56,483 nucleotides of DNA from Spirochaetales bacterium. GTDB lineage: Bacteria > Spirochaetota > Spirochaetia > Sphaerochaetales > Sphaerochaetaceae. Made by a program: the position numbers and the translations under genes. Below the pieces are notes generated by a model that ran no database searches, was not told the DNA's origin, and worked only from the letters and a program-made list of their open reading frames with translations. The stretch spans positions 1 through 56,483 of the forward strand of contig JALEVV010000090.1 in NCBI GenBank assembly GCA_022788185.1, written 5' to 3'. Below, piece after piece: positions 43,541-54,773 of this stretch (position 1 is its first letter; every line of letters starts with the position of its first letter).

Positions 43541-44107
43541 CTACTTTACCGTGACTCCAAGGAGCTTCACGATGTCAACAGCCTGGGAAATATCAAGCTC
43601 CGCACCCCTCACTTCCTTCAGCGATTCGCTTAGGAAGATTCCGTCAAGGGATGAGCCCGTAAGGGAAAGATCCCTGAGGGATGTTCCCGTCAGAACGGCA
43701 CGGCGGAGGTTTGTATCGTGGATCCTTACTCTTTTGTGAGTCACGTCGGTAAAGCCGGTCTCCTCCAGGGAGGAGGATGTGATTTCCACGTCCTGAATGC
43801 GCATGGAAGAAAGATCGCTGTATGAGAAGTTCACTCTCAGAAAACTGCTTTTCCTGATCCTCGCGCCCTCCAGCGTAACGCCCATGAGCTTTGAGTCCGT
43901 GAAGGAACAGCCGTCGATGAGGCACTCCGGCATGCGGCAGGAAATGAAGGTACAGGTATCAAAGGTGCACGAAGTGAAGACTGCAGACGAGAAGTCACAG
44001 TCAGTGTATGTCTGGTTTGAGAAAACACAGTCCGAGAAAGTGTGAAAAGAAAAAGCTTCCCCTGTGTGAGTTTCACCGGAGAAGCTCTCGTAGCTGCAGT
44101 CTTCCAT
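43541..44107 (-). CDS. Pentapeptide-repeat protein
   Basis: A 188-aa protein made mostly of five-residue repeats with a central Phe or Leu (for example CTFDT CTFIS, then SYSDLSSM, NLRRAVLTGTSL), predicting a right-handed quadrilateral beta-helix like McbG or Qnr. The C-terminal ELDISQAVDIVKLLG is a short helix typical of these proteins. Function is unknown; some relatives mimic DNA and protect gyrase. Its ATG overlaps the hisIE stop by one base, making it the last gene of the his operon. Confidence 0.8.
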   Translation of the reverse strand: MEDCSYESFSGETHTGEAFSFHTFSDCVFSNQTYTDCDFSSAVFTSCTFDTCTFISCRMPECLIDGCSFTDSKLMGVTLEGARIRKSSFLRVNFSYSDLSSMRIQDVEITSSSLEETGFTDVTHKRVRIHDTNLRRAVLTGTSLRDLSLTGSSLDGIFLSESLKEVRGAELDISQAVDIVKLLGVTVK

Positions 44108-44715
44108 TATCTGGAGTGGCGGCCCTTCAGCACTTCCACTACCTCAGAGAGGGATGAATCCTTCTGGGCAAGAAGTACCAGGAAGTGGTACATGAGGTCT
44201 GCGGCCTCACCGAGGAAGAGTTCCTTGTTGTTGTCCTTGCTCTCGATGATGAGTTCGACTGCTTCCTCACCTACCTTCTGTGCGATCTTATTGAGGCCTC
44301 TTGAGAAGAGGTGGTTTGTATATGAGCCTTCCTGAGGGTTGTTTCTTCTGTCGTTAATGACATCCTCAAGATAGAACAGGAACTCGGTTGAGGTCATCTC
44401 ACTGGGTTCATTTACCTCATCGAAGCAGGTATCAGCACCGGTATGGCATACGGGACCGGTCGGTATGGCCTTAACCAGGAGCGTGTCCCCGTCACAGTCC
44501 GCAAGGATTTCGCGTACCTGGAGGAAGTTTCCGCTGGTCTCTCCCTTGGTCCAGATTCTCTTTCTCGATCTTGACCAGAAAGTCACGAGGCCTCTGTCCA
44601 GAGTGAGCTGATAAGCCTCTGCGTTCATATATCCGAGCATGAGCACGCGATGCGTCACTGCATCCTGAACGATAGCCGGAACAAGTCCGTCACCTTTTTC
44701 AAAATCAATAACCAT
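44107..44715 (-). CDS. hisIE: HisIE: phosphoribosyl-AMP cyclohydrolase / phosphoribosyl-ATP pyrophosphatase
   Basis: A 202-aa fused enzyme catalysing steps 2 and 3 of histidine synthesis. The HisI part shows [34 protein letters not shown] and DCDGDTLLV with the zinc-binding Cys (CHTGADTCF); the HisE part shows [19 protein letters not shown]. Its order at the end of the biosynthetic operon matches enterobacteria. AGGGTGACATT precedes the ATG. Confidence 0.96.
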
Positions 44716-44719
44716 AATG

Positions 44720-45499
44720 TCACCCTACTAATGAATTTAACCTAACAGGAATGTCATGTTTTTGTAAATACCTTTTTAGGTCGATAATGTCTATTTCGTG
44801 ATAGTGGAACACGCTGGCAGCCAGGGCCGCATCGGCATTTCCCTCCAGGAACACGTCCCTGAAATGCTCCATCGTTCCGGCACCTCCCGATGCGATTACG
44901 GGAATCGAGAGCGCGGTGCTCACTGCCGAGGTTATGTCATTTGAAAAGCCCGCCTTGGTGCCGTCGGCGTTCATGCTCGTCAGCAGGATCTCACCGGCTC
45001 CGAGGCTCTCGCACCTTCGCGTCCACTCCAGCGCATCGAGTCCGGCAGGGGTTCTGCCCCCGTCGATGTACACCTCATAGCCTGACGGGAAGGCAGGATT
45101 CTTCCTGACATCCACCGCGCATACCACGCACTGACTGCCGAAACGGCCCGAGAATTCGGTTATTACCTCCGGCTTTCTTACCGCCATGGAGTTAACCGAT
45201 ATCTTGTCCGCTCCCCTGGAAAGGAGCATGTAGGCATCATCGGCACTTCTTATTCCGCCGCCGACGGTGAAGGGAATGTCGATGGCGGCCGCGATCCTCT
45301 CAACGAGGGAGGAAAGCGTCTTCCTGTTCTCGACCGTGGCCGTAATGTCCAGGAAAACCAGCTCATCGGCTCCTGACTGGCTGTAGCGCACCGCATTCTC
45401 AACCGGGTCTCCGGCATCGGCGAGGGAAAGAAAGTTTATGCCCTTGACCGTGCGTCCGTTCTTTATGTCCAGACAGGGAATTATCCTCTTTGCAAGCAT
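44720..45499 (-). CDS. hisF: Imidazole glycerol phosphate synthase, cyclase subunit
   Basis: A 259-aa TIM-barrel subunit. [16 protein letters not shown] and the DITATVENR segment carry the catalytic Asp residues; a second set is at [12 protein letters not shown] and LTSMNADGT. With HisH it makes imidazole glycerol phosphate and AICAR. Its ATG overlaps the end of hisA by 19 bp. Confidence 0.97.
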
Positions 45500-46212
45500 T
45501 CAGCCTCCTTCATCTCCTTCAGGGTGATGTGTCCTTCATAATAAGCCTTACCCACTATCGCGCCGTAAAGGCCTGAAAGGGCAAGCTTCTTCAGATCCTC
45601 AGTGGTGGTTATCCCGCCGGAGGCGATTACCTTCATTTCAGGAACGCACTCCGCTATGGCGTCATAAAGTGCGAAGGAAGGCCCCATGAGCATGCCGTCC
45701 TTTGAGATATCGGTGCTTATGCACGTGTCAAAGCCCTTCTCACGCCACCCCTTTATGAAGGAAGTAACCTCCAGGGCGCTGTCCTCCATCCAGCCGGATG
45801 TGGATACGAAGCCATTCCTGCAGTCGGCCCCGAGGATGAGGCATCCCGGGTGCTCTTCCAGCCAGAGGAGCACCGTTTCCGGATCCCTTACGGCAATGGA
45901 GCCGCAGGTGACGAAGGCCGCCCCTGCACAAAGTGCCGCATTGAGGGAAGCAGTTGTCTTCACGCCGCCGCCGAAGTCAACGGTAAGACCGGTACTTCCG
46001 GCAATGCGTTCCAGGGTCTTCAGGTTCTTTATCTCCCCTGAGCGGGCTCCGTCCAGATCGACGAGATGGAGTCTTGTAAGGCCTGCATCCTCAAAGCGTT
46101 TTGCCACCTCCAGAGGATCACGGAAATAGCTCTTCTTAGCCTCGTAATCGCCCTTGCTGAGGCGGACGCACTCACCGCCGATAATGTCTATTGCGGGTAT
46201 TACGGTCATCAC
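45481..46212 (-). CDS. hisA: ProFAR isomerase
   Basis: A 243-aa TIM-barrel enzyme opening the ribose ring of Pro[23 protein letters not shown] and [13 protein letters not shown] match the family; [14 protein letters not shown] carries the second catalytic Asp. Overlaps hisH by 4 bp and hisF by 19 bp. Confidence 0.97.
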
Positions 46213-46799
46213 TTCACCTCCAGAAAATTCTTAAGCAGAAGGGCACCTGCCCCGCCGCTCTTCTCAGGGTGGAACTGGACTCCGCAGAAGTTGTCCTTCC
46301 TGATGGCCGCGGAAAAGGTTACGCCTGCGTAGGAGCATGAAGCGATGGTGCGTTCGGAGGCTTCAGCATAGTATGAGTGGACGAAGTAAAACCAGGTGCC
46401 GTCCGCAATGCCCTTAAAGAGCGGGTCATCGCTGACCTGAATCTCATTCCAGCCCACATGGGGTATCTTGTCACCCGCGGCCCTGTCGAAGAGGCGAACG
46501 TGCTCCGGCGTGATGCCGAGAAGGCTGACGTTTCCCTCCTCTGAGAAGGAGTTCATGAGCTGCATGCCGAGGCATATTCCCAGAAAGGGACGTTCATACT
46601 CCCTCAGGACCTCGGTAAGACCCCTCTTCTCCAGCTCCGCCATTGCGGAAGCGGCCGCACCCACACCGGGGAAGATGACCCGGTCCGCCCTTCTTATCTG
46701 ATCAGGGTCGGCAGTGAGAACCGCATCCGCTCCCAGACGGGAGAGGGCGTTCATGACCGAACGGACGTTTCCGGAATTGTAATCAACGACTGCTGTCAT
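46209..46799 (-). CDS. hisH: Imidazole glycerol phosphate synthase, glutaminase subunit
   Basis: A 196-aa class I glutamine amidotransferase. Catalytic Cys in FLGICLGMQLM, His and Glu in FCGVQFHPEKSG, and the P-loop-like GVGAAASAM. It supplies ammonia to HisF. Overlaps hisB and hisA by 4 bp each. Confidence 0.97.
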   Translation of the reverse strand: MTAVVDYNSGNVRSVMNALSRLGADAVLTADPDQIRRADRVIFPGVGAAASAMAELEKRGLTEVLREYERPFLGICLGMQLMNSFSEEGNVSLLGITPEHVRLFDRAAGDKIPHVGWNEIQVSDDPLFKGIADGTWFYFVHSYYAEASERTIASCSYAGVTFSAAIRKDNFCGVQFHPEKSGGAGALLLKNFLEVK

Positions 46800-47923
46800 A
46801 GTACCCCCTTGGTGGAAGGAAGCTCATCGGAGGCGGGATTTCTCTTAACCGCAACCTTTATGCTTCTGGCGAAGGCCTTGAAGAGGACCTCCGCCATGTG
46901 GTGGGAGTTGCCCTGCGTCACATGGAGATAAAGGTTGCACTCCGCCGCATTGGAAAAGGACTTGAAGAAGTGCTGGATCATCTCGGTCGGGAAGGTGCCG
47001 ATGTACTCCCTTCTGAAGTCCACGTCGTAGATGAACTCGGCCCTGCCAGAGAAGTCGAGGGCGACCGTCGCGACCACGTCATCCATGATGAGGATGTCCG
47101 AGCCGTAGCGGTTGATGCCCCGCTTGTCCCCGAGGGCCTTTTTCATGAGCTGTCCCAGCGTGATGGCAAAATCCTCGACGCTGTGGTGCTCATCCACCTC
47201 CAGGTCTCCCCTGAAGGTGCCTGAAAGATCGATTCCCGAGTGCTTAACGATCTGCTCGGTCATGTGATCGAAGAATCCGATTCCCGTTATGATCCTGCCC
47301 TTTCCGGTGCCGTCGAGGGAGAGGTCAAACTCAAATCCGGTCTCATTGGTGTTTCTCACGAGAGTGGCACGCCGAACCTTCTTAACCTTTCCTCCCGTGA
47401 GGAAGGAGGCAATTTCATTCCAGCTTTCACTCGTCAGCATAACGGTGTCCCGAAGCTCTTCCGGCACACTCTCATTTCCAAACCAGATTCCCCTGGCACC
47501 GAGAGAGCGGGCAAGCTCCATGTCCGTCTTCCGGTCCCCGATCACAAACGAGGAGGCAAGATCCCACTCCCCGTTCTCATAGGACTCAAGCATGGCCTTT
47601 CCCGGCTTTCTTCCGGGACAGTGGTCCTCCGGAAGGGAGAAATCCACGTTAATGTCGGAAAAGAAGATCCCTTCCCCCGCAATCGTACCCATGATGAGGT
47701 CCTGAGCCTTCTCATAGACCTCCCTAGGCAGGGCCGGGGTTCCCACCCCGTCCTGGTTGCTTACGAGCACCAGGGCGTAATCGGTGTAATCCTGAATCGC
47801 CTTGAGGGAGGTGAAGACACCTTCCATGAAGCGGATGTCCTCAGGTCTGTTCTTATGGCCCTTTTTCACCAGGACGCCGTCCCGGTCGATGAAGAGGGCC
47901 CTCTTCTGCTTCTTAAACTCCAC
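46796..47923 (-). CDS. hisB: HisB bifunctional histidinol phosphatase / IGP dehydratase
   Basis: A 375-aa two-domain enzyme. The N-terminal HAD phosphatase (LFIDRDGVLVKK, then a Cys/His zinc loop in DHCPGRKPGKAM and GDRKTDMELA) joins the C-terminal dehydratase (DHMTEQIVKHSG, DEHHSVEDFAI, GNSHHMAEVLFKAFAR). This fusion is the enterobacterial and Bacteroidetes form. The start is GTG at 47923 with GGGAGG upstream, overlapping hisC by 11 bp. It does steps 7 and 9 of the pathway. Confidence 0.96.
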   Translation of the reverse strand: MEFKKQKRALFIDRDGVLVKKGHKNRPEDIRFMEGVFTSLKAIQDYTDYALVLVSNQDGVGTPALPREVYEKAQDLIMGTIAGEGIFFSDINVDFSLPEDHCPGRKPGKAMLESYENGEWDLASSFVIGDRKTDMELARSLGARGIWFGNESVPEELRDTVMLTSESWNEIASFLTGGKVKKVRRATLVRNTNETGFEFDLSLDGTGKGRIITGIGFFDHMTEQIVKHSGIDLSGTFRGDLEVDEHHSVEDFAITLGQLMKKALGDKRGINRYGSDILIMDDVVATVALDFSGRAEFIYDVDFRREYIGTFPTEMIQHFFKSFSNAAECNLYLHVTQGNSHHMAEVLFKAFARSIKVAVKRNPASDELPSTKGVL

Positions 47924-48968
47924 CGAGCACCTCCCTGACCGCACTGACGAGAAGATCATTTTCCTCCCGGGATCCTATCGTTATCCTGAGGCAGGAGTCG
48001 CACAGCACCTCCCGGGACCTGTCGCGGACGATGATGCCCCGCTTCCTGAGTTCGAGGAAGACCTCATGGGCCTTATTCATCCTGACAAGGAGGAAGTTGG
48101 CATCGCTTGAAAAGACGGTGTGAACGCCCTCCGTCTCCTCCAGCAGCTTTTTCACCCTCTCCCTCTCCGCAACTGTCAGGGCCACTTCCTTCCTGACACG
48201 GTCGGCACGGGAGAGTGCCGCAGCCGCATAGGCCTGGGAGAGCAGCGGCACGTTGTAGGGGTACTTCACCATGTAAATGAGATCCGCGATCTCGGGGGAT
48301 GTGACGGAAATTCCGATACGTCCTCCGGCCAGCGCCCACGCCTTTGAGAGCGTCCTTAGGACGACCACCCTCTCATTACCGGCAATGAGATCGACGGCAC
48401 TCCTGTTGGATGAGAAATCGAGATATGCCTCATCCACAACCGTAATGCCCCTGTTGTACTCGGTAAGCTCCCTTATCACTTCAAAGGGCACGGAAACACC
48501 CGTCGGATTATTCGGGGAACAGATGAACATCAGCTTCGGTGAGCACTCATCCAGGGCCTTTTTTATCGCTTCGACATTCAGCGAGAAATCACTGTTCTGC
48601 ACTACCGTATGGACATCCACGTCATTTATGGAGGCAAGCACTTTATACTCGCCGTAGGTGGGAGGCATTATCAGGACCGAGTCACGGCCCGGGGTGCAGA
48701 AGAGACGGTACATGATGTCAATAAGCTCATCGGAGCCGTTTCCGATGCTCACCATCCGCTCGTCGTAGCCGAAGACCTCACTGACGGCCCTCTTCACCGC
48801 CGATGAATGGGGATCGGGATAGCGGTTGATATTGTCAAAGTCCACGAAATCCTGCCAGTTCTCATTGGCATCGAGAAAGACAGAAGCGGTTCCCGAAAAG
48901 TCATCACGGGCCGATGAATAGGGCTCCAGTGATCTTATGTTATCCCTTAAGAGTTCCCTTATGCTCAT
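47913..48968 (-). CDS. hisC: Histidinol-phosphate aminotransferase
   Basis: A 351-aa PLP enzyme of fold type I. SPNNPTGVSVPFE, VVDEAYLDFS and the PLP-Lys motif RTLSKAWALAGGRIG are present, as is the DANENWQDF N-terminal motif. It aminates imidazole acetol phosphate. Overlaps hisD by 4 bp and hisB by 11 bp. Confidence 0.96.
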   Translation of the reverse strand: MSIRELLRDNIRSLEPYSSARDDFSGTASVFLDANENWQDFVDFDNINRYPDPHSSAVKRAVSEVFGYDERMVSIGNGSDELIDIMYRLFCTPGRDSVLIMPPTYGEYKVLASINDVDVHTVVQNSDFSLNVEAIKKALDECSPKLMFICSPNNPTGVSVPFEVIRELTEYNRGITVVDEAYLDFSSNRSAVDLIAGNERVVVLRTLSKAWALAGGRIGISVTSPEIADLIYMVKYPYNVPLLSQAYAAAALSRADRVRKEVALTVAERERVKKLLEETEGVHTVFSSDANFLLVRMNKAHEVFLELRKRGIIVRDRSREVLCDSCLRITIGSREENDLLVSAVREVLGGV

Positions 48969-50260
48969 GCCATCCTCACTCTTGCCGCCTCGGCGTGGGC
49001 GGTAAGCTCCTCCGCCTCAGCCATCGTGATCACGGTGGGGGCAAGGCTCCTGATGCCTTCCTTCGTAAGCTCCTGTACCGTGATCTTCTTTATGAAGCTG
49101 TCCACGCTGACACCGGACTGGGAAGCGGCATGACCCGAGGTGGGAAGCGTGTGGTTGGTTCCGCTGGCATAATCCCCTGCCGACTCAGGCGAGTAGGGAC
49201 CGAGGAAGACGGAGCCCGCGCTCTCAACTCCCTCAAGCAGGGCATAGGGATCGGAGGTGTTGATGATAAGGTGCTCGGGAGCATAGCTGTTTACCATCTT
49301 CAGGACACTCTCATCGTCGTAGAAGCTGAACGCCGCAGAGTGGGAAAGGGAGGGAAGCATGTACTCCTTCCGTCCAAGCTTCTCCACTTCATAGGCAAGC
49401 TTTTCCTCAATTGCCCCATGGATCCGGGAGGCTTCAGCCTCATCTGCTGCCCTTATGACAAGCATGACCTGACTGTCCCTCCCGTGCTCTGCCTGGCTTA
49501 ACAGGTCCGTCGCCACGTATAGGGGATCGGCAGTGGAGTCACAGACTACCATTACCTCGCTGGGACCTGCCACCATGTCTATGGAGCACACCTCAGAGGC
49601 CATGGACTTGGCGAAGGCCACATATCTGTTTCCGGGTCCGAAGATCTTGTCGACCCTGCCGACGGAATCCGTTCCGTAGGCCAGTGCCGCAATTGCCTGG
49701 GCACCGCCGCACTTCAGAACCCTCTTCACCCCGCATAGGGCTGCGGTATAGAGGACGGCGGAGTTGACCTTTCCGTTCTTCGCCGGGGTTGCCAGCGTGA
49801 TCTCACCGCACCCTGCCACCTTTGCGGGCACGCACAGCATGAGGACGGTGGAAAAGAGAGGTGCAGTGCCTCCCGGGATGTAGAGACCGACCTTCTTAAT
49901 GGGGACGATCTTCCTGAAGCATCTCACACCGGGCTCGGTGCATACGTCCTCACCTGTGCTGAGTTCAGCCTCATGGAAGGTAAGGATGTTTCCATAAGCC
50001 CTCTTTATCGCCGCCTTCAGCTCCTCAGGTACCTCGGCTTCGGCTGCGGCAAACTCCTCCTCGCTGACGAAAAGCTCATCAAGGTCCGAGCCATCAAACT
50101 TCAGTGCATATTCCCTCAGGGCCTCATCGCCGCGCTTTTTCACATCCTCCATGATCGCGGCAACCCTCTCCCTTACCGCGGCATCATCGCTCTGAATGCG
50201 CTCAAGCAGCGGGAGATAGAGCTCCTCTGAAGGATTCGGGTAGTATTTTATCAGTGCCAT
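48965..50260 (-). CDS. hisD: Histidinol dehydrogenase
   Basis: A 431-aa zinc enzyme that performs the last two oxidations to histidine. YIPGGTAPLFSTVLM, the signature in the region IDMVAGPSEVMVV, and the C-terminal NHTLPTSGHA with Zn-binding His are visible. It lies 3 bp after the hisG stop. Confidence 0.97.
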   Translation of the reverse strand: MALIKYYPNPSEELYLPLLERIQSDDAAVRERVAAIMEDVKKRGDEALREYALKFDGSDLDELFVSEEEFAAAEAEVPEELKAAIKRAYGNILTFHEAELSTGEDVCTEPGVRCFRKIVPIKKVGLYIPGGTAPLFSTVLMLCVPAKVAGCGEITLATPAKNGKVNSAVLYTAALCGVKRVLKCGGAQAIAALAYGTDSVGRVDKIFGPGNRYVAFAKSMASEVCSIDMVAGPSEVMVVCDSTADPLYVATDLLSQAEHGRDSQVMLVIRAADEAEASRIHGAIEEKLAYEVEKLGRKEYMLPSLSHSAAFSFYDDESVLKMVNSYAPEHLIINTSDPYALLEGVESAGSVFLGPYSPESAGDYASGTNHTLPTSGHAASQSGVSVDSFIKKITVQELTKEGIRSLAPTVITMAEAEELTAHAEAARVRMA

Positions 50261-50263
50261 CTC

Positions 50264-51130
50264 TCACTCCGTCATCTTCTCGATGTCCATTACCAGGATA
50301 CCCTCGGCACCGAGCTCCCTGAGGCTCTCGAATACCGTCCAGAAGCGGTCCTCGGCAACAACTGACTGGACTGAAACCCAGTCGGGATCCATAAGGGGTG
50401 TGACCGTGGGGCTCTTCATGCCTCCGATGATGGCCGCAGCCTCATTGAGATTCTTCTTCGGGAGGTTGAAGAGCACGTACTTTTTGTGCTTGGCCATTGC
50501 CACCGTATCCATCCTGACGAGAAGGCGCTTAAGCACGTCGTAGCGCTCACTCTCCTCCCTCTCGAACTCCTTCCTGCTGATCATGACGGCGGAGGTGTAG
50601 TAGATGGGCTCAACTTCCTTAAGGCCATTCATCTTGAGTGTGGTTCCGGTGCTGACAAGGTCACAGATACAGTCCGCGATACCGACCTGCGGCGTGATCT
50701 CGACGGAACCGGAGACGGTCACGTAGGAGGCATTTACGCCTGCCTTTTTCAGGATTCTTTCGGTGATCCGGGGATAGGAGGTCGCGATCCTCTTACCCTC
50801 CAGCGATGTAAGGTCCCTGTAGTCGAAGTCATTGGGAACTGCGATGGAGAGACGGCATGCGGCAAAACCCAGGTCACGGACGATATTGAGGTCGTATCCC
50901 TTTTCATCATATTCGTTGCGTCCCACGATTCCGATGTCGGCAACGCCGTCATTCACATAGGTCGGAATGTCGTCATCCCTGACGAACAGGAATTCGAGGG
51001 GAAAGTTAGGGCTGAACGTCCTGAGTACCCGTGAATCCTCACTGAACTCAATTCCGCATGACCTGATAAGCTCCAGACTCTTCTCCGAGAGCCTGCCGCT
51101 TTTCTGTACCGCTATTCTCAGGTTTTTCAT
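50264..51130 (-). CDS. hisG: ATP phosphoribosyltransferase, long form
   Basis: A 288-aa enzyme for the first, controlled step of histidine synthesis. RIAVQKSGRLSEKS and DDIPTYVNDGVADIGIVG form the catalytic part; the last 80 residues form the histidine-binding regulatory domain of the long form, so feedback control by histidine is expected. The sequence looks more like Bacteroidetes HisG than most spirochaete proteins (recollection). AAGGAGAG precedes the ATG. It is the first structural gene after the attenuator. Confidence 0.96.
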   Translation of the reverse strand: MKNLRIAVQKSGRLSEKSLELIRSCGIEFSEDSRVLRTFSPNFPLEFLFVRDDDIPTYVNDGVADIGIVGRNEYDEKGYDLNIVRDLGFAACRLSIAVPNDFDYRDLTSLEGKRIATSYPRITERILKKAGVNASYVTVSGSVEITPQVGIADCICDLVSTGTTLKMNGLKEVEPIYYTSAVMISRKEFEREESERYDVLKRLLVRMDTVAMAKHKKYVLFNLPKKNLNEAAAIIGGMKSPTVTPLMDPDWVSVQSVVAEDRFWTVFESLRELGAEGILVMDIEKMTE

Positions 51131-51146
51131 TCGTGTCTCTCCTTAT

Positions 51147-51175
51147 AAAAAAAGTCTCCGACATGAGCGGAGACT
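51147..51175 (-). terminator. his operon attenuator (intrinsic terminator in the leader)
   Basis: Minus strand: AGTCTCCG and CGGAGACT form a perfect 8-bp stem around CTCATGT, followed by seven T residues. It lies 37 bp after the stop of the His-rich leader and 17 bp before the hisG start. It is the expected attenuator position. Confidence 0.9.
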
Positions 51176-51212
51176 CCTATATGTGCGAATCCATTCCATG
51201 CCGTAACAATGG

Positions 51213-51257
51213 TCAGCCAAAGTGATGGTGGTGATGGATGTTCATTTCTGTTTTCAT
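51213..51257 (-). CDS. hisL: his operon leader peptide with five consecutive His codons
   Basis: A 14-codon ORF reading MKTEMNIHHHHHFG, stop TGA. The five His codons are CAT CAC CAC CAT CAC. It sits between promoter and attenuator, as hisL does in enterobacteria (whose leader has seven His in a row). Ribosomes stalling at the His run when charged tRNA-His is scarce would prevent the terminator from folding. The first ATG lies 6 bases after the -10, so this mRNA is predicted to be leaderless; the second ATG at 51245 is an alternative start. Confidence 0.9.
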   Translation of the reverse strand: MKTEMNIHHHHHFG

Positions 51258-51263
51258 GTAAAC

Positions 51264-51292
51264 AGCATAGTTATTTTCATACGTTAGGTCAA
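51264..51292 (-). promoter_or_regulatory. his operon promoter
   Basis: Minus strand: TTGACC (51287-51292), 17-bp spacer, TATGCT (51264-51269), then 6 bases to the first ATG of the leader peptide. A start 7 bases past the -10 falls on the A of that ATG. Confidence 0.75.
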
Positions 51293-51308
51293 TATGTAAG
51301 AGGGAAAA

Positions 51309-51899
51309 TCACTCCTTTTCACTCCACTCGGCCTCGGCAACCTTCTCCCGTCCGGAATACTTTCTGATGACGAGGGAGAGCTTAATGGCCCAGGCAACCA
51401 CGAAGATGCCGCTCGTGATCAGCACCACTCCCACAACGAGGAGCAGCGTTGAGTTGATGAAGTTCGGAAAGAGGAACATCAGAACGGCAAAGACGATGTA
51501 GAGCCACCCGGAGGAACCGTAGTAGAAGGGATCGGCATAGCCGCTCTTTCTGATGAGATAGGACTCACACACCTCGGAAAGACCCGTAAGCAGGAGGTTG
51601 AGAGCAATGAGCCATACCAACCAGGCAGCCACCGCTGCACCTGGGCTGGTTGCGGCGAAGTACACGACCAGTATGCTTATGAATAGGTTTATGAGGGTCT
51701 TCACGATGTTGAAGCGCACCACACCGGAAATGCTCCTGAACCTGAATGAGGTTCCCAGTGCCGTGAGGGATTCGATTATGTTGAAGACACCGAATGCGAT
51801 CACGCCGATCTTCACGACCGATGCCGGAGCCGCGATGAACAGGATGCCGAGGGCTGCGAGCAGAATGCCGCTGCCGATATAAGAGAGATAACGTTTCAC
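51309..51899 (-). CDS. DUF308 (HdeD-like) membrane protein
   Basis: A 196-aa membrane protein with six or more hydrophobic segments in repeated pairs, matching DUF308/HdeD. Family function is unclear; some members are linked to acid stress. The start is GTG at 51899 with AAGGAGG 4-5 bases upstream, chosen over the ATG at 51926. It is divergent from the HAD gene; the his promoter lies just past its stop. Confidence 0.72.
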   Translation of the reverse strand: MKRYLSYIGSGILLAALGILFIAAPASVVKIGVIAFGVFNIIESLTALGTSFRFRSISGVVRFNIVKTLINLFISILVVYFAATSPGAAVAAWLVWLIALNLLLTGLSEVCESYLIRKSGYADPFYYGSSGWLYIVFAVLMFLFPNFINSTLLLVVGVVLITSGIFVVAWAIKLSLVIRKYSGREKVAEAEWSEKE

Positions 51900-51946
51900 C
51901 TTTTCCTCCTTGATTAACCCCTTCATCTTCCTTTAGGTTTAGATCC

Positions 51947-52624
51947 ATGAAAAGATACACTCACCTGCTTCTGGATGCTGACGGGACCTTTTATGATTTT
52001 GCTTCCTGTGAAAATATAGCGCTCAGAAAGCTGTTTGACCACTATAATATTCCTTTTACAGAGGAAAACATACAGCTGTTTCACTCGGCCAACCGGGCCC
52101 TCTGGGAGGCCTTTGAGCGGGATGAGGCGACTACCCGGGACATCAGGGACAGGAGACTCATCCCACTGCTGGAGAAATTCGGCCACGGCGATGAGGCGGT
52201 AAGTGCCGGTCAGCTCTACTGCGATTACCTTGCGATGAACGGCATCCTCTTTCCCGGCGCCAGGGAGTGTCTTGAGGCCCTGAAGGAAAAGTATTCCCTC
52301 ACCATGATCACGAACGGACTTACCGAAGTCCAGTACGGACGCTTTGAGTCGTCGGGAACGACCAGATTTTACGACCACATAATAATCAGTGAGGAAATCG
52401 GGGTGCAGAAGCCGAAGAAGGAGTTCTTCAGTCACACGCTCAGGACTATCGGGGCAGAGCCCGGGGAGTGCCTCATAATCGGGGACAGTCTCACCAGCGA
52501 CATTCAGGGAGGCATCAACAGCGGTATAGACACCCTCTATCTCTGTCTCTCGGGAGAGAAAAAGGAAGGAGGGTACACCTACAGCGCAGGAGACTATGAA
52601 ACGCTGCTTGCCCTCCTAACTTAA
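51947..52624 (+). CDS. YjjG-type HAD nucleotidase
   Basis: A 225-aa HAD hydrolase. The nucleophile motif is LLLDADGTFYDF; motif II MITNGL; motif III KPKKEFF; motif IV GDSLTSDIQGG. It resembles YjjG pyrimidine 5'-nucleotidase, which removes non-canonical pyrimidine nucleotides. No Shine-Dalgarno sequence precedes the ATG; a weak TTGATT-17-TTAGGT promoter ends 8 bases before it, another possible leaderless case. Confidence 0.85.
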   Translation: MKRYTHLLLDADGTFYDFASCENIALRKLFDHYNIPFTEENIQLFHSANRALWEAFERDEATTRDIRDRRLIPLLEKFGHGDEAVSAGQLYCDYLAMNGILFPGARECLEALKEKYSLTMITNGLTEVQYGRFESSGTTRFYDHIIISEEIGVQKPKKEFFSHTLRTIGAEPGECLIIGDSLTSDIQGGINSGIDTLYLCLSGEKKEGGYTYSAGDYETLLALLT

Positions 52625-52627
52625 GAC

Positions 52628-53377
52628 TCATTTGTCAACGCTGATAAGCTCTATGTCGAAGATGAGCAGCTGGTTGGGCTCGATGTTGCTCGACCCGTTG
52701 ATCCCATAGCCCAGATCCGGATGGACCCATGCCCTGATCTTCTCACCCTCGCTCATGACTGAGCATGCGGCCCTGAAGCCCTCGATGATGTTGGTGGAGA
52801 GATCGAAGGTGGAGGTCTGACCGCGCTCGTAGGAGGAGTCCTTGACCTCCCCTGAGAGGGTAATGAGCTGGTAGTTGACCGTAACGGTGGAGTTGGCTTC
52901 AGCCTTCTTACCGCCCTCCTGGGGCTCGCGGAGCACCTCGTACTGCAGCTTGTCGCTGTAGGCCTTCACGCCGGAGCGCTTGCTGTTCGTCGAGAGGAAA
53001 CTCTCAGCGGCAGCCAGGTTCTTCTCTCTGAGGACATTCATCTCGGCCTCATAGGACTCATAGCGCTTCTGCTGATATTCGTTCATTATCTCCTGACTCT
53101 CGGCCATCGTGTAGCTGAAGTCATTGTCCACATACGCCCTTACTCCCTCGGCAAAGTATTCGGAGTCAAGCTCGGGCATCTGAGCGATGATGGAGTTCAG
53201 CAGCTGATAGCCGTAGACGTAGGCAAACCTCTCCTCAAGGGTGTCCGGCCCGGGGAGAGCTGTTTTTTCCCCAACTGTCACTTCAACAGGCTGTGTTACC
53301 ATCTCTGTAACCGGAGCGGGCTTTGAGCACGATACGGCAAGTGCCGCAAGCAGTAGGAAAACAAGATATTTTTTCAT
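52628..53377 (-). CDS. FKBP-type peptidyl-prolyl isomerase lipoprotein
   Basis: A 249-aa exported protein. The lipobox LAVSC follows the signal helix. The N-terminal part is a helical FkpA/Mip-like dimerisation region (about 50-130), then the FKBP domain with VTVNYQLITLSGEV, SYERGQTSTFDLS, and the motif KIRAWVHPDLGYGINGSSNIEPNQLLIFDIELI. It likely assists folding in the periplasm, anchored by lipid. The start at 53377 (MKKYL) has AGGGTGG upstream. Confidence 0.88.
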   Translation of the reverse strand: MKKYLVFLLLAALAVSCSKPAPVTEMVTQPVEVTVGEKTALPGPDTLEERFAYVYGYQLLNSIIAQMPELDSEYFAEGVRAYVDNDFSYTMAESQEIMNEYQQKRYESYEAEMNVLREKNLAAAESFLSTNSKRSGVKAYSDKLQYEVLREPQEGGKKAEANSTVTVNYQLITLSGEVKDSSYERGQTSTFDLSTNIIEGFRAACSVMSEGEKIRAWVHPDLGYGINGSSNIEPNQLLIFDIELISVDK

Positions 53378-53389
53378 AATCATACCACC

Positions 53390-53932
53390 CTAAAATATAA
53401 GCTTTATCCCCTCACCCGTCAGCACATAACCGCGGCAGTCGGCAACGGCAATGGCGGGAAAGTCCTTTACGGTGAGCCTCAGCAGTGCCTCGGGCCCGAG
53501 CTCGGGATAAGCCACCGTCTCACAGGACGTGATGCATGAGGAGTAGAGCGCACCGCAGCCCCCGAAGGCCTGAAGGTAGAGTCCGTGGTACTTTCTCACG
53601 GCATCCAGCACCGGAGGCTTTCTCGGTCCCTTGCCCACCATGAGCCTGAGTCCCTTTTCGACGAGAAGCGGTGAGAAGGGATCCATGCGGGCACTTGTCG
53701 TGGGTCCGCAGGAACCCATTACCTGCCCCTCCGCGGCGGGGGAAGGTCCCATGTAGTAAATTCCGTTGCCCTCAAAGTCAAAGGGCAGACACTCACCCTT
53801 CATAATGGCATCGTAAAGTCTCATGTGCACCTGATCACGGCCCACATAGAGAGTGCCTGATATGGAAACGGTGTCACCCGCATTGATTTTCTCAAGTTCA
53901 TCACCGCTGTACGGCAGCTCAAGCTTCACCAT
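53390..53932 (-). CDS. Fumarase class I / tartrate dehydratase, beta subunit
   Basis: A 180-aa protein, the beta half of the two-subunit class I fumarase family. GPTTSARMDPFSPLL and the region YMGPSPAAEGQVMGSCGP carry substrate-binding residues; YGPGA-type loops follow. The alpha subunit gene lies directly upstream and overlaps it by about 14 bp. The start at 53932 follows GGAGG; GTG at 53929 is also possible. It could be fumarase or L-tartrate dehydratase. Confidence 0.88.
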   Translation of the reverse strand: MVKLELPYSGDELEKINAGDTVSISGTLYVGRDQVHMRLYDAIMKGECLPFDFEGNGIYYMGPSPAAEGQVMGSCGPTTSARMDPFSPLLVEKGLRLMVGKGPRKPPVLDAVRKYHGLYLQAFGGCGALYSSCITSCETVAYPELGPEALLRLTVKDFPAIAVADCRGYVLTGEGIKLIF

Positions 53933-54773
53933 CATAACCTCCGAGTACCACCACCGTTGCCCGGCGCTCCGCATGGCAGTTAACGGTCACTGCCAGGGGA
54001 AGGCCTGCGATGTGGGTGGGATATGTCTCGATCGCAACCCCGAGACAGGTGTTGTCGCCGCCCAGGCCCCCGGGTCCGATGGGAAGGGTGTTGACACTCT
54101 CCCTTATCCTCTCCTCCAGGGCCCTGTAGCGCTTATCCGGGTTTTCTCCGCTTCTTAAGAGGGCCTTCTTGCTGAGGAAGGCGGCCTTATCCATTGTTCC
54201 GCCAAGCCCAATGCCCAGAAAGACGGGAGGACACGGCTTTCCGCCGGCGCTTCTCATGATGTCGGTGACGGCCTCGACGACCTCATCCTCACCCGCGGTG
54301 GGGTTGAGCATCCTGACGCCTGAGCAGTTCTCACTGCCGAAGCCCTTCAGCAGGAAGCTGATCGTGATGTTCTCACCGTCGCACATCTCATAGTAAATGA
54401 CACATGGAAGATTGTTCCCCGTATTGGTCCGGTCATAGAGGGGATCCCGGACGACGCTCTTTCTGTAGAGGGAGTTTTTCGCGGCTGCCCTGGCCCCCGC
54501 ATTTATCTCTTCCTCGAGAAGGGGCAGGTTTACCCTGGCCTTCCGTCCGATGGAAACAAGGACGAAGAACATTCCCGTATCCTGACAGAGGGGAATGCCG
54601 CTTTCCCGGCTTATGTCGATGTTTTTCACGATATGGGTCAGTACCGTCTTTCCGTACTCACCGCTTTCGCACTTCTCAGCCTTCCTGATCCTCTCCTCAA
54701 CCTCCGGAGGAAGGATTCTCGCCGCCGACGTGAGTGCGTTCTCTATGCTCTTTCTCAGTTTCATGGGCATCAT
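53919..54773 (-). CDS. Fumarase class I / tartrate dehydratase, alpha subunit
   Basis: A 284-aa protein binding the catalytic [4Fe-4S] cluster. Cluster Cys are expected in LCQDTGMFFV, ENCSGVRML and GDNTCLGVAI, all present, together with IGLGGTMDKAA. With the beta subunit it hydrates fumarate (or dehydrates tartrate). The start is uncertain: ATG at 54773, 54770 or 54764, all lacking a clear ribosome site and all overlapping the end of the VanZ-like gene by up to 77 bp. Confidence 0.9.
   Translation of the reverse strand: MMPMKLRKSIENALTSAARILPPEVEERIRKAEKCESGEYGKTVLTHIVKNIDISRESGIPLCQDTGMFFVLVSIGRKARVNLPLLEEEINAGARAAAKNSLYRKSVVRDPLYDRTNTGNNLPCVIYYEMCDGENITISFLLKGFGSENCSGVRMLNPTAGEDEVVEAVTDIMRSAGGKPCPPVFLGIGLGGTMDKAAFLSKKALLRSGENPDKRYRALEERIRESVNTLPIGPGGLGGDNTCLGVAIETYPTHIAGLPLAVTVNCHAERRATVVVLGGYDGEA

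Follow-up and report, generated by a model that had tools for sequence, protein, structure and literature searches.

A candidate ribosome-mediated attenuator ahead of the histidine operon of a spirochaete, with a leader mRNA predicted to be leaderless

In enterobacteria, the his leader (hisL) combines a leader ORF carrying histidine codons, mutually exclusive RNA pairings, and a terminator, and hisG is the first gene behind it. The E. coli leader is described in terms of stems A to F. Leader-peptide attenuation of his genes has been described or predicted in Proteobacteria and in some Gram-positive groups, as far as the accessible parts of two papers go (PMC9413887, PMC2965389). One of them, in its accessible text, predicts candidate his attenuators in Firmicutes, namely in the Bacillus cereus group, Eubacteriales, and Erysipelotrichales (PMC9413887); the other states in the part available that leader-peptide systems were, to its authors' knowledge, not shown outside Proteobacteria and Actinobacteria, to which it adds the bacilli (PMC2965389). 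Leader genes were counted in Spirochaetales, among others, in a survey whose available portion places hisG attenuation only in gammaproteobacteria (PMC4833913). Another paper included Spirochaetes genomes, and its text contains neither "histidine" nor "hisG" (PMC8632094). Two further systems bear on how such a leader may begin. The Sinorhizobium meliloti trpL RNA (rnTrpL/peTrpL) begins with the ATG of a 14-amino-acid leader peptide ORF (PMC7298713), and in the spirochaete Leptospira interrogans leaderless mRNAs are common, about 440 having a UTR of under 10 nt (PMC5243855), both according to the accessible parts of these papers. The original prediction on the locus described here knew of no ribosome-mediated his attenuator described in spirochaetes, and the accessible open-licence literature indeed yielded no paper on one; older comparative surveys might list spirochaetes. 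The surveys of Vitreschak in 2004 and, later, of the Lyubetsky group are reportedly comparative attenuator studies of this kind.

The window, by which we mean the whole stretch of 56,483 nucleotides that was analyzed (contig JALEVV010000090.1 of assembly GCA_022788185.1), comes from a Spirochaetales bacterium of the family Sphaerochaetaceae whose genome assembly comprises 90 contigs and 2.27 Mb. By HisG, its closest named relative is the spirochaete Bullifex porci, at 89% identity. Pfam searches identified eight his genes in a compact run, hisG, D, C, B, H, A, F, and IE, from 51130 down to 44107 (Table 1), and hisB joins a HAD-like domain to IGPD as E. coli HisB does. Ahead of hisG, TTGACC (51292-51287) and TATGCT (51269-51264), separated by 17 nt, were read directly on the minus strand as -35 and -10 elements, and a consensus scan returned this 51292-51264 promoter as the sole promoter-like site in 51100-51400 (one found, against a shuffle mean of 0.4). 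The leader ORF consists of 14 codons and a stop, ATG AAA ACA GAA ATG AAC ATC CAT CAC CAC CAT CAC TTT GGC TGA, and a 37-nt spacer (51212-51176) leads from it to a terminator whose stem is formed by AGTCTCCG (51175-51168) and CGGAGACT (51160-51153), with six T at 51152-51147. RNAfold gave this hairpin -13.8 kcal/mol; nevertheless, the consensus scan reported no terminator in 51100-51400, presumably because extension of the stem consumes the T run. The leader measures about 110 nt, counted from its AUG through the last T of the run.

Table 1. Coordinates of the his leader and his operon in the window
Feature	Coordinates	Strand	Basis
Sigma-70-type promoter; start predicted on A51257 or a neighboring base	51264..51292	-	Scan; TTGAC-to-ATG distance alike in relatives
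Leader peptide ORF, hisL-like, MKTEMNIHHHHHFG	51213..51257	-	Sequence reading; His-rich ORF in relatives
Five consecutive His codons (CAT CAC CAC CAT CAC), presumed sensor	51222..51236	-	At least 2 His codons in other leaders
Segment 1 core, ATCCAT (Ile-His codons); would pair with segment 2 if no ribosome covers it	51234..51239	-	Folding
Segment 2 (CATGGAATGGATTC); would pair with His codons or with terminator arm and loop (antiterminator)	51187..51200	-	Folding
Segment 3, terminator 5' arm and loop (GAGTCTCCGCTCATG), putative antiterminator partner	51162..51176	-	Folding
Intrinsic terminator: 8-bp stem, 7-nt loop, six T	51147..51175	-	Sequence reading; RNAfold
hisG, first structural gene, SD-like AAGGAGAG	50264..51130	-	PF01634 + PF08029
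hisD	48965..50260	-	PF00815
hisC, aminotransferase class I/II (name by operon position)	47913..48968	-	PF00155
hisB, HAD-like N terminus + IGPD fusion	46796..47959	-	PF13242 + PF00475
hisH, glutamine amidotransferase (name by position)	46209..46799	-	PF00117
hisA (name by operon order)	45481..46212	-	PF00977
hisF (name by operon order)	44720..45499	-	PF00977
hisIE	44107..44715	-	PF01502 + PF01503

The minus-strand order given by the original prediction (promoter, His ORF, 37-base spacer, terminator, hisG) was thus borne out by direct reading, and its 14-codon ORF with five consecutive His codons was placed correctly to within a base. Of the two pairings that it named, ATCCAT with ATGGAT is present in the minimum-energy fold (51239-51234 with 51194-51189), one base away from the approximate position given for ATGGAT. 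The other, CCATT with AATGG (51212-51208 with 51195-51191), does form when the His region is blocked, but in a terminated fold of the window, and it opposes the antiterminator rather than building it. The antiterminator supported by folding would instead pair the spacer at 51200-51187 with the terminator arm and loop at 51176-51162, a partner that the original prediction had left unnamed.

We propose, with a probability of roughly 87%, that the his-operon leader is a ribosome-mediated transcription attenuator at which RNA polymerase starts, as the promoter spacing suggests, on the A of the leader AUG or next to it. A ribosome would then load on the 5' end of the RNA without a Shine-Dalgarno site. 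With charged tRNA-His plentiful, it would clear the five His codons and leave; the His-codon segment would bind segment 2, as folding supports, the terminator arm would stay free, and the terminator at 51175-51147 would halt transcription. With tRNA-His short, the ribosome would stall on the His codons and cover segment 1, the freed segment 2 would bind the 5' arm and loop of the terminator before the 3' arm exists, and polymerase would continue into the eight his genes. Two elements of a classical attenuator were observed directly, a His-codon ORF ahead of the eight his genes that is kept in relatives and an intrinsic terminator between that ORF and hisG.

The layout is conserved in relatives. 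Within the genus of the window, a hisG match was found in 15 of 16 genomes, the window included, and a His-rich short ORF precedes hisG in all 15; the same held for 13 of 13 spirochaete loci of a genome collection, several of which are contigs of the genus set. Another 120 hisG upstream regions, among the matches listed, extend the comparison further afield: 25 come from other genera of the family, 64 (from 63 genomes) from the class beyond the family, and 31 from the phylum beyond the class. Of the 25 from other genera, among the matches listed, 23 showed the layout, and it was absent in L031, where hisG lies closely behind another frame (by eye), and L035, where hisG lies within a 531-aa open frame. 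The class outside the family, likewise among the matches listed, gave 7 clear positives from four families, 56 negatives, and one region (L147) that was doubtful until its family was searched separately. Outside the class, the His-ORF scan found the layout in none of the 31 sampled hisG regions, among the matches listed. The 56 negatives were scored as such by requiring at least 3 His among 6 residues in an ORF no longer than 40 aa, a criterion that weaker leaders would escape; two of the 120 regions are truncated because their contigs end there (L065 at 400 bases, L091 at 547 bases). The checks proposed with the original prediction, the presence of the same structure in related genomes and the retention of the His codons, therefore came out in its favor among the close relatives examined. 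Every leader in the resulting set of 50, one of them a duplicate, has a hairpin with a T run and at least two His codons, the minimum of two being found in L029. In many members of the genus, an element resembling GGCATGGCTGG and matching segment 2 could be seen by eye. On this evidence, several spirochaete families would share his attenuation as a conserved point of control.

The doubtful region belongs to one further family of the class (f4). When this family was searched in its own right, 14 of 23 genomes proved to have hisG, and in all 14 a His leader precedes it, with a hairpin and T run behind the leader. These leaders (L175 to L188) represent a second, GC-rich type, many reading HLHHHGHAxAVAMIVIP, with a terminator before hisG in 14 of 14. 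Their peptides resemble each other more than those of the 50-leader set do, the tail being similar among many, and their promoter spacing suggests a leaderless start. Folding revealed no clear switch in this family (11.6 antiterminator pairs free and 13.6 stalled, against 10.9 and 12.4 for shuffles), and for L185 to L187 it took a second hairpin further down than that of the leader search. Since folding was not clearly above shuffles, the family was dropped as evidence for switching and kept for distribution and promoter spacing.

Folding and pairing were tested on 49 leaders, L033 being dropped as a duplicate of L026 and the near-duplicates L014/L015 and L052/L055 being kept. For the blocking test, up to 13 nt were masked, counting from the start of the first His codon, and the RNA was made only as far as the terminator loop. 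Blocking the first His codon raised the expected number of segment 2:3 pairs from a mean of 3.92 to 9.66; the gain exceeded 0.5 pair in 45 of the 49 leaders, and in no leader did antiterminator pairing fall. A ribosome on the stop codon gave a mean of 5.70. Dinucleotide-shuffled spacers went from 5.60 to 5.95, a change of 0.36 (sd 0.36), whereas the observed change of 5.74 was reached by none of 60 shuffled-spacer replicates. The segments also fit their own partners better than those of other leaders: His codons with spacer gave -13.13 against -10.68 (sd 0.34) for swapped partners, and spacer with terminator gave -10.96 against -9.00 (sd 0.32), each reached in 0 of 5,000 swaps among leaders that are related and so not independent. 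An initial swap run with 20 leaders gave 0 of 5,000 and 9 of 5,000, respectively. In 36 of 49 leaders, a His stall gave at least one pair more than either the free or the stop state; in 5 of 49 the stop-codon ribosome exceeded the first-His stall, a pattern to which the window belongs. At full-length equilibrium, the terminator fraction was 0.95 free, 0.73 with a ribosome on the first His, 0.67 on the last His, and 0.93 on the stop, and the leaders less than half terminated numbered 0, 12, 15, and 0 of 49 in these states. Co-transcriptional kinetics are usual for attenuators, and in our folding model the remaining leaders would need them to switch. For the 49-leader set, an antiterminator that cannot coexist with the terminator and that a His-codon stall would free was thus found in silico, and folding with and without the His region blocked, as proposed at the outset, revealed a competing fold that is conserved over that set.

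Folded alone, the window is a typical example of the leader set in this model, not a strong one. Its fold is modestly better than shuffles (z of -1.94), and of 300 shuffled spacers, 83 attained the energy of its His-codon:spacer duplex and 99 that of its spacer:terminator duplex. Blocking the first His codon raised its antiterminator pairs from 1.2 to 8.5, and this change of 7.3 was reached by none of 60 shuffles. Before the 3' arm is made, the window had 1.2 pairs without a ribosome, 5.7 to 10.5 when the ribosome stalls at a His codon, and 10.6 when it sits on the stop. A stop-codon ribosome leaves segment 2 free, and therefore termination at high histidine would come about through ribosome release and 1:2 pairing, or through the 3' arm winning. 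At full-length equilibrium, the window was 0.93 to 0.97 terminated for stalls at His1 to His4 and 0.26 at His5, a switch position that moves when the assumed footprint is shifted by 2 to 4 nt.

How much of this could arise with the terminator constitutive or controlled by a protein, and with the His-rich ORF incidental or encoding a small His-rich peptide, for example a metal-binding one? A terminator before hisG would by itself only give a low basal level, and the permissive search for short His-rich ORFs gives background hits, which amounted to 9 among 120 reverse strands and 85 among 2,400 shuffles. It is because of the conservation, set against this background, that the observation stands beyond chance, the fold of the window alone being modest. 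The peptide outside the His run varies widely between genera in the 50-leader set, which suggests selection on codons and RNA rather than on the peptide, and the ORF stop lies 17 to 38 nt ahead of the hairpin in 50 of 50 leaders. Together with the release of the antiterminator by a His block, far beyond that seen with shuffled spacers, the position of the ORF and the terminator make an incidental ORF very unlikely, and we set it aside. Still less probable, to the point of being nearly negligible, is direct sensing of histidine or tRNA-His by a T-box, riboswitch, or RNA-binding protein without translation of the leader. Such control has a precedent in Firmicutes, whose his genes are placed under histidine T-boxes and the HisR repressor in the accessible text of one paper (PMC9413887). 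In positions 48000-54000 of the window, at E up to 5, the T-box covariance model had no match and neither did any other plausible Rfam family; moreover, the leader of about 110 nt is largely filled by the ORF, the switch segment, and the terminator. T-boxes, riboswitches, and known leader families were rejected for want of a convincing Rfam match. The classical attenuator reading is thus the one that the complete anatomy, the conservation, and the pairing tests support.

A further alternative keeps attenuation and disputes only the leaderless part: transcription might start further upstream, with a distant or weak ribosome site. In the window, six bases (GTTTAC) separate the -10 element from the leader ATG, and therefore transcription would begin on the A of the ATG or an adjacent base, which leaves no space for a Shine-Dalgarno site. 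The leader is accordingly predicted from its sequence to be leaderless, a feature missing from the original prediction, and the sole promoter-like site found would set the start on the AUG. Of the 49 leaders, 31 share this gap of exactly 6 nt, where mononucleotide-shuffled upstream regions gave a mean of 0.27 and a maximum of 3, although start codons were hand-picked after the 6-nt gap had been noticed by eye and in-frame upstream starts were sometimes passed over. TTGAC lies 33 to 38 nt ahead of the ATG in 38 of 49 leaders, and 8 of the 11 exceptions are from the genus of the window. It is this genus that speaks for an upstream start, since 8 of its 15 leaders, with start codons hand-picked as elsewhere, have 19 to 44 nt from -10 to ATG and 7 of these 8 were flagged with an SD-like sequence. 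The GC-rich leaders argue the other way, with TTGAC 36 to 40 nt ahead of the start in 14 of 14, a count that covers TTGAC only and uses starts chosen by hand in the same manner. On balance we regard an upstream start as unlikely, although clearly less so than the two explanations above.

Returning to a leaderless attenuator, a broader joint reading can be formulated, to which, taken as a whole, we give about even odds. The his attenuator of several spirochaete families would be run by a leaderless leader mRNA, with polymerase starting on the AUG and the ribosome on the 5' end, coupling the two from the first nucleotide. The switch could then sense the capacity for 5'-end initiation besides charged tRNA-His. 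Some members of the window's genus would have kept the switch but exchanged this leader for one with a Shine-Dalgarno site and an extended 5' UTR, and the terminated RNA of about 110 nt may be a free leaderless mRNA, by analogy with S. meliloti rnTrpL. A his attenuator in these spirochaetes would imply close transcription-translation coupling there, and a genus in which the attenuator occurs both leaderless and SD-led would offer natural pairs in which the effect of the start mode is directly testable.

Other leader candidates came to light alongside. In the genome of the window (contig C30, L158:379-545), an Ile/Leu/Val-rich ORF, MTGSQLIQKKHLPLIALISLILVVLLRN, with an SD and then a strong hairpin with a T run lies before ilvN, a gene named by eye; past ilvN follow an ilvC-like frame (by eye) and leuA. 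Such a leader with a hairpin and T run occurs in 12 of 13 ilvN upstream regions of the genus, that genome included, and L168 showed neither Ile/Leu/Val leader nor hairpin with T run upstream of ilvN. A candidate ilv attenuator thus shares the genus with the his attenuator. On contig C15 (L160:1921-2381), an ORF with tandem Trp codons and an SD, MTDLKRWWRCRA, precedes a 148-aa frame matching the trpE N terminus; this trpE-like frame looks truncated, and a trpC-like frame comes next (by eye). The frame was found in this one genome of the genus and in none of the other 15 searched, and a trp attenuator is no more than a lead. Just upstream of the tandem-Trp ORF lies GGGTGGCACCGGGG, which we take to resemble the T-box core motif; Rfam called no T-box in that region. 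In the myxobacterium Corallococcus interemptor (L030:2796-3003), an ORF containing HHHHAHH lies before hisG, as does, by eye, a strong hairpin with a T run.

The original prediction also held that enterobacterial hisL works in this way, which stands for the principle but not for homology, RF00514 failing to recognize the leader. This Rfam model had no match in 48000-54000 of the window at E up to 5, and none over its cutoff in 41 genomes; weaker matches at E up to 1 occurred in 14 of the 41, none in G000, and in genus genomes having both such a match and hisG it never lay on the hisG contig. Among 14 control genomes, one had a match over the cutoff. Spirochaete leaders would accordingly be missed in annotation because the Rfam His_leader model does not detect them.

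In layout, the window resembles the enterobacterial his leader (hisL; RF00514) in its His-codon leader ORF, its mutually exclusive pairings, its intrinsic terminator, and hisG as the first gene. It is simpler than that of E. coli, with three segments (1:2, 2:3, and the terminator), and unlike the enterobacterial leader its ORF has no room for an SD. The Firmicutes candidates share with it a short leader, three to five His codons running, a terminator and antiterminator, and a comparative mode of prediction; they belong to another phylum, and the accessible text, with which we compared by description, does not mention leaderless leaders for them (PMC9413887). S. meliloti trpL is likewise a ribosome-dependent attenuator with a leaderless leader mRNA, predicted in the window and experimental in S. 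meliloti, although it serves tryptophan in an alphaproteobacterium, as the part of the paper available describes (PMC7298713). The principle of attenuation is thus classical, and its leaderless form is the most unusual trait of the spirochaete leader.
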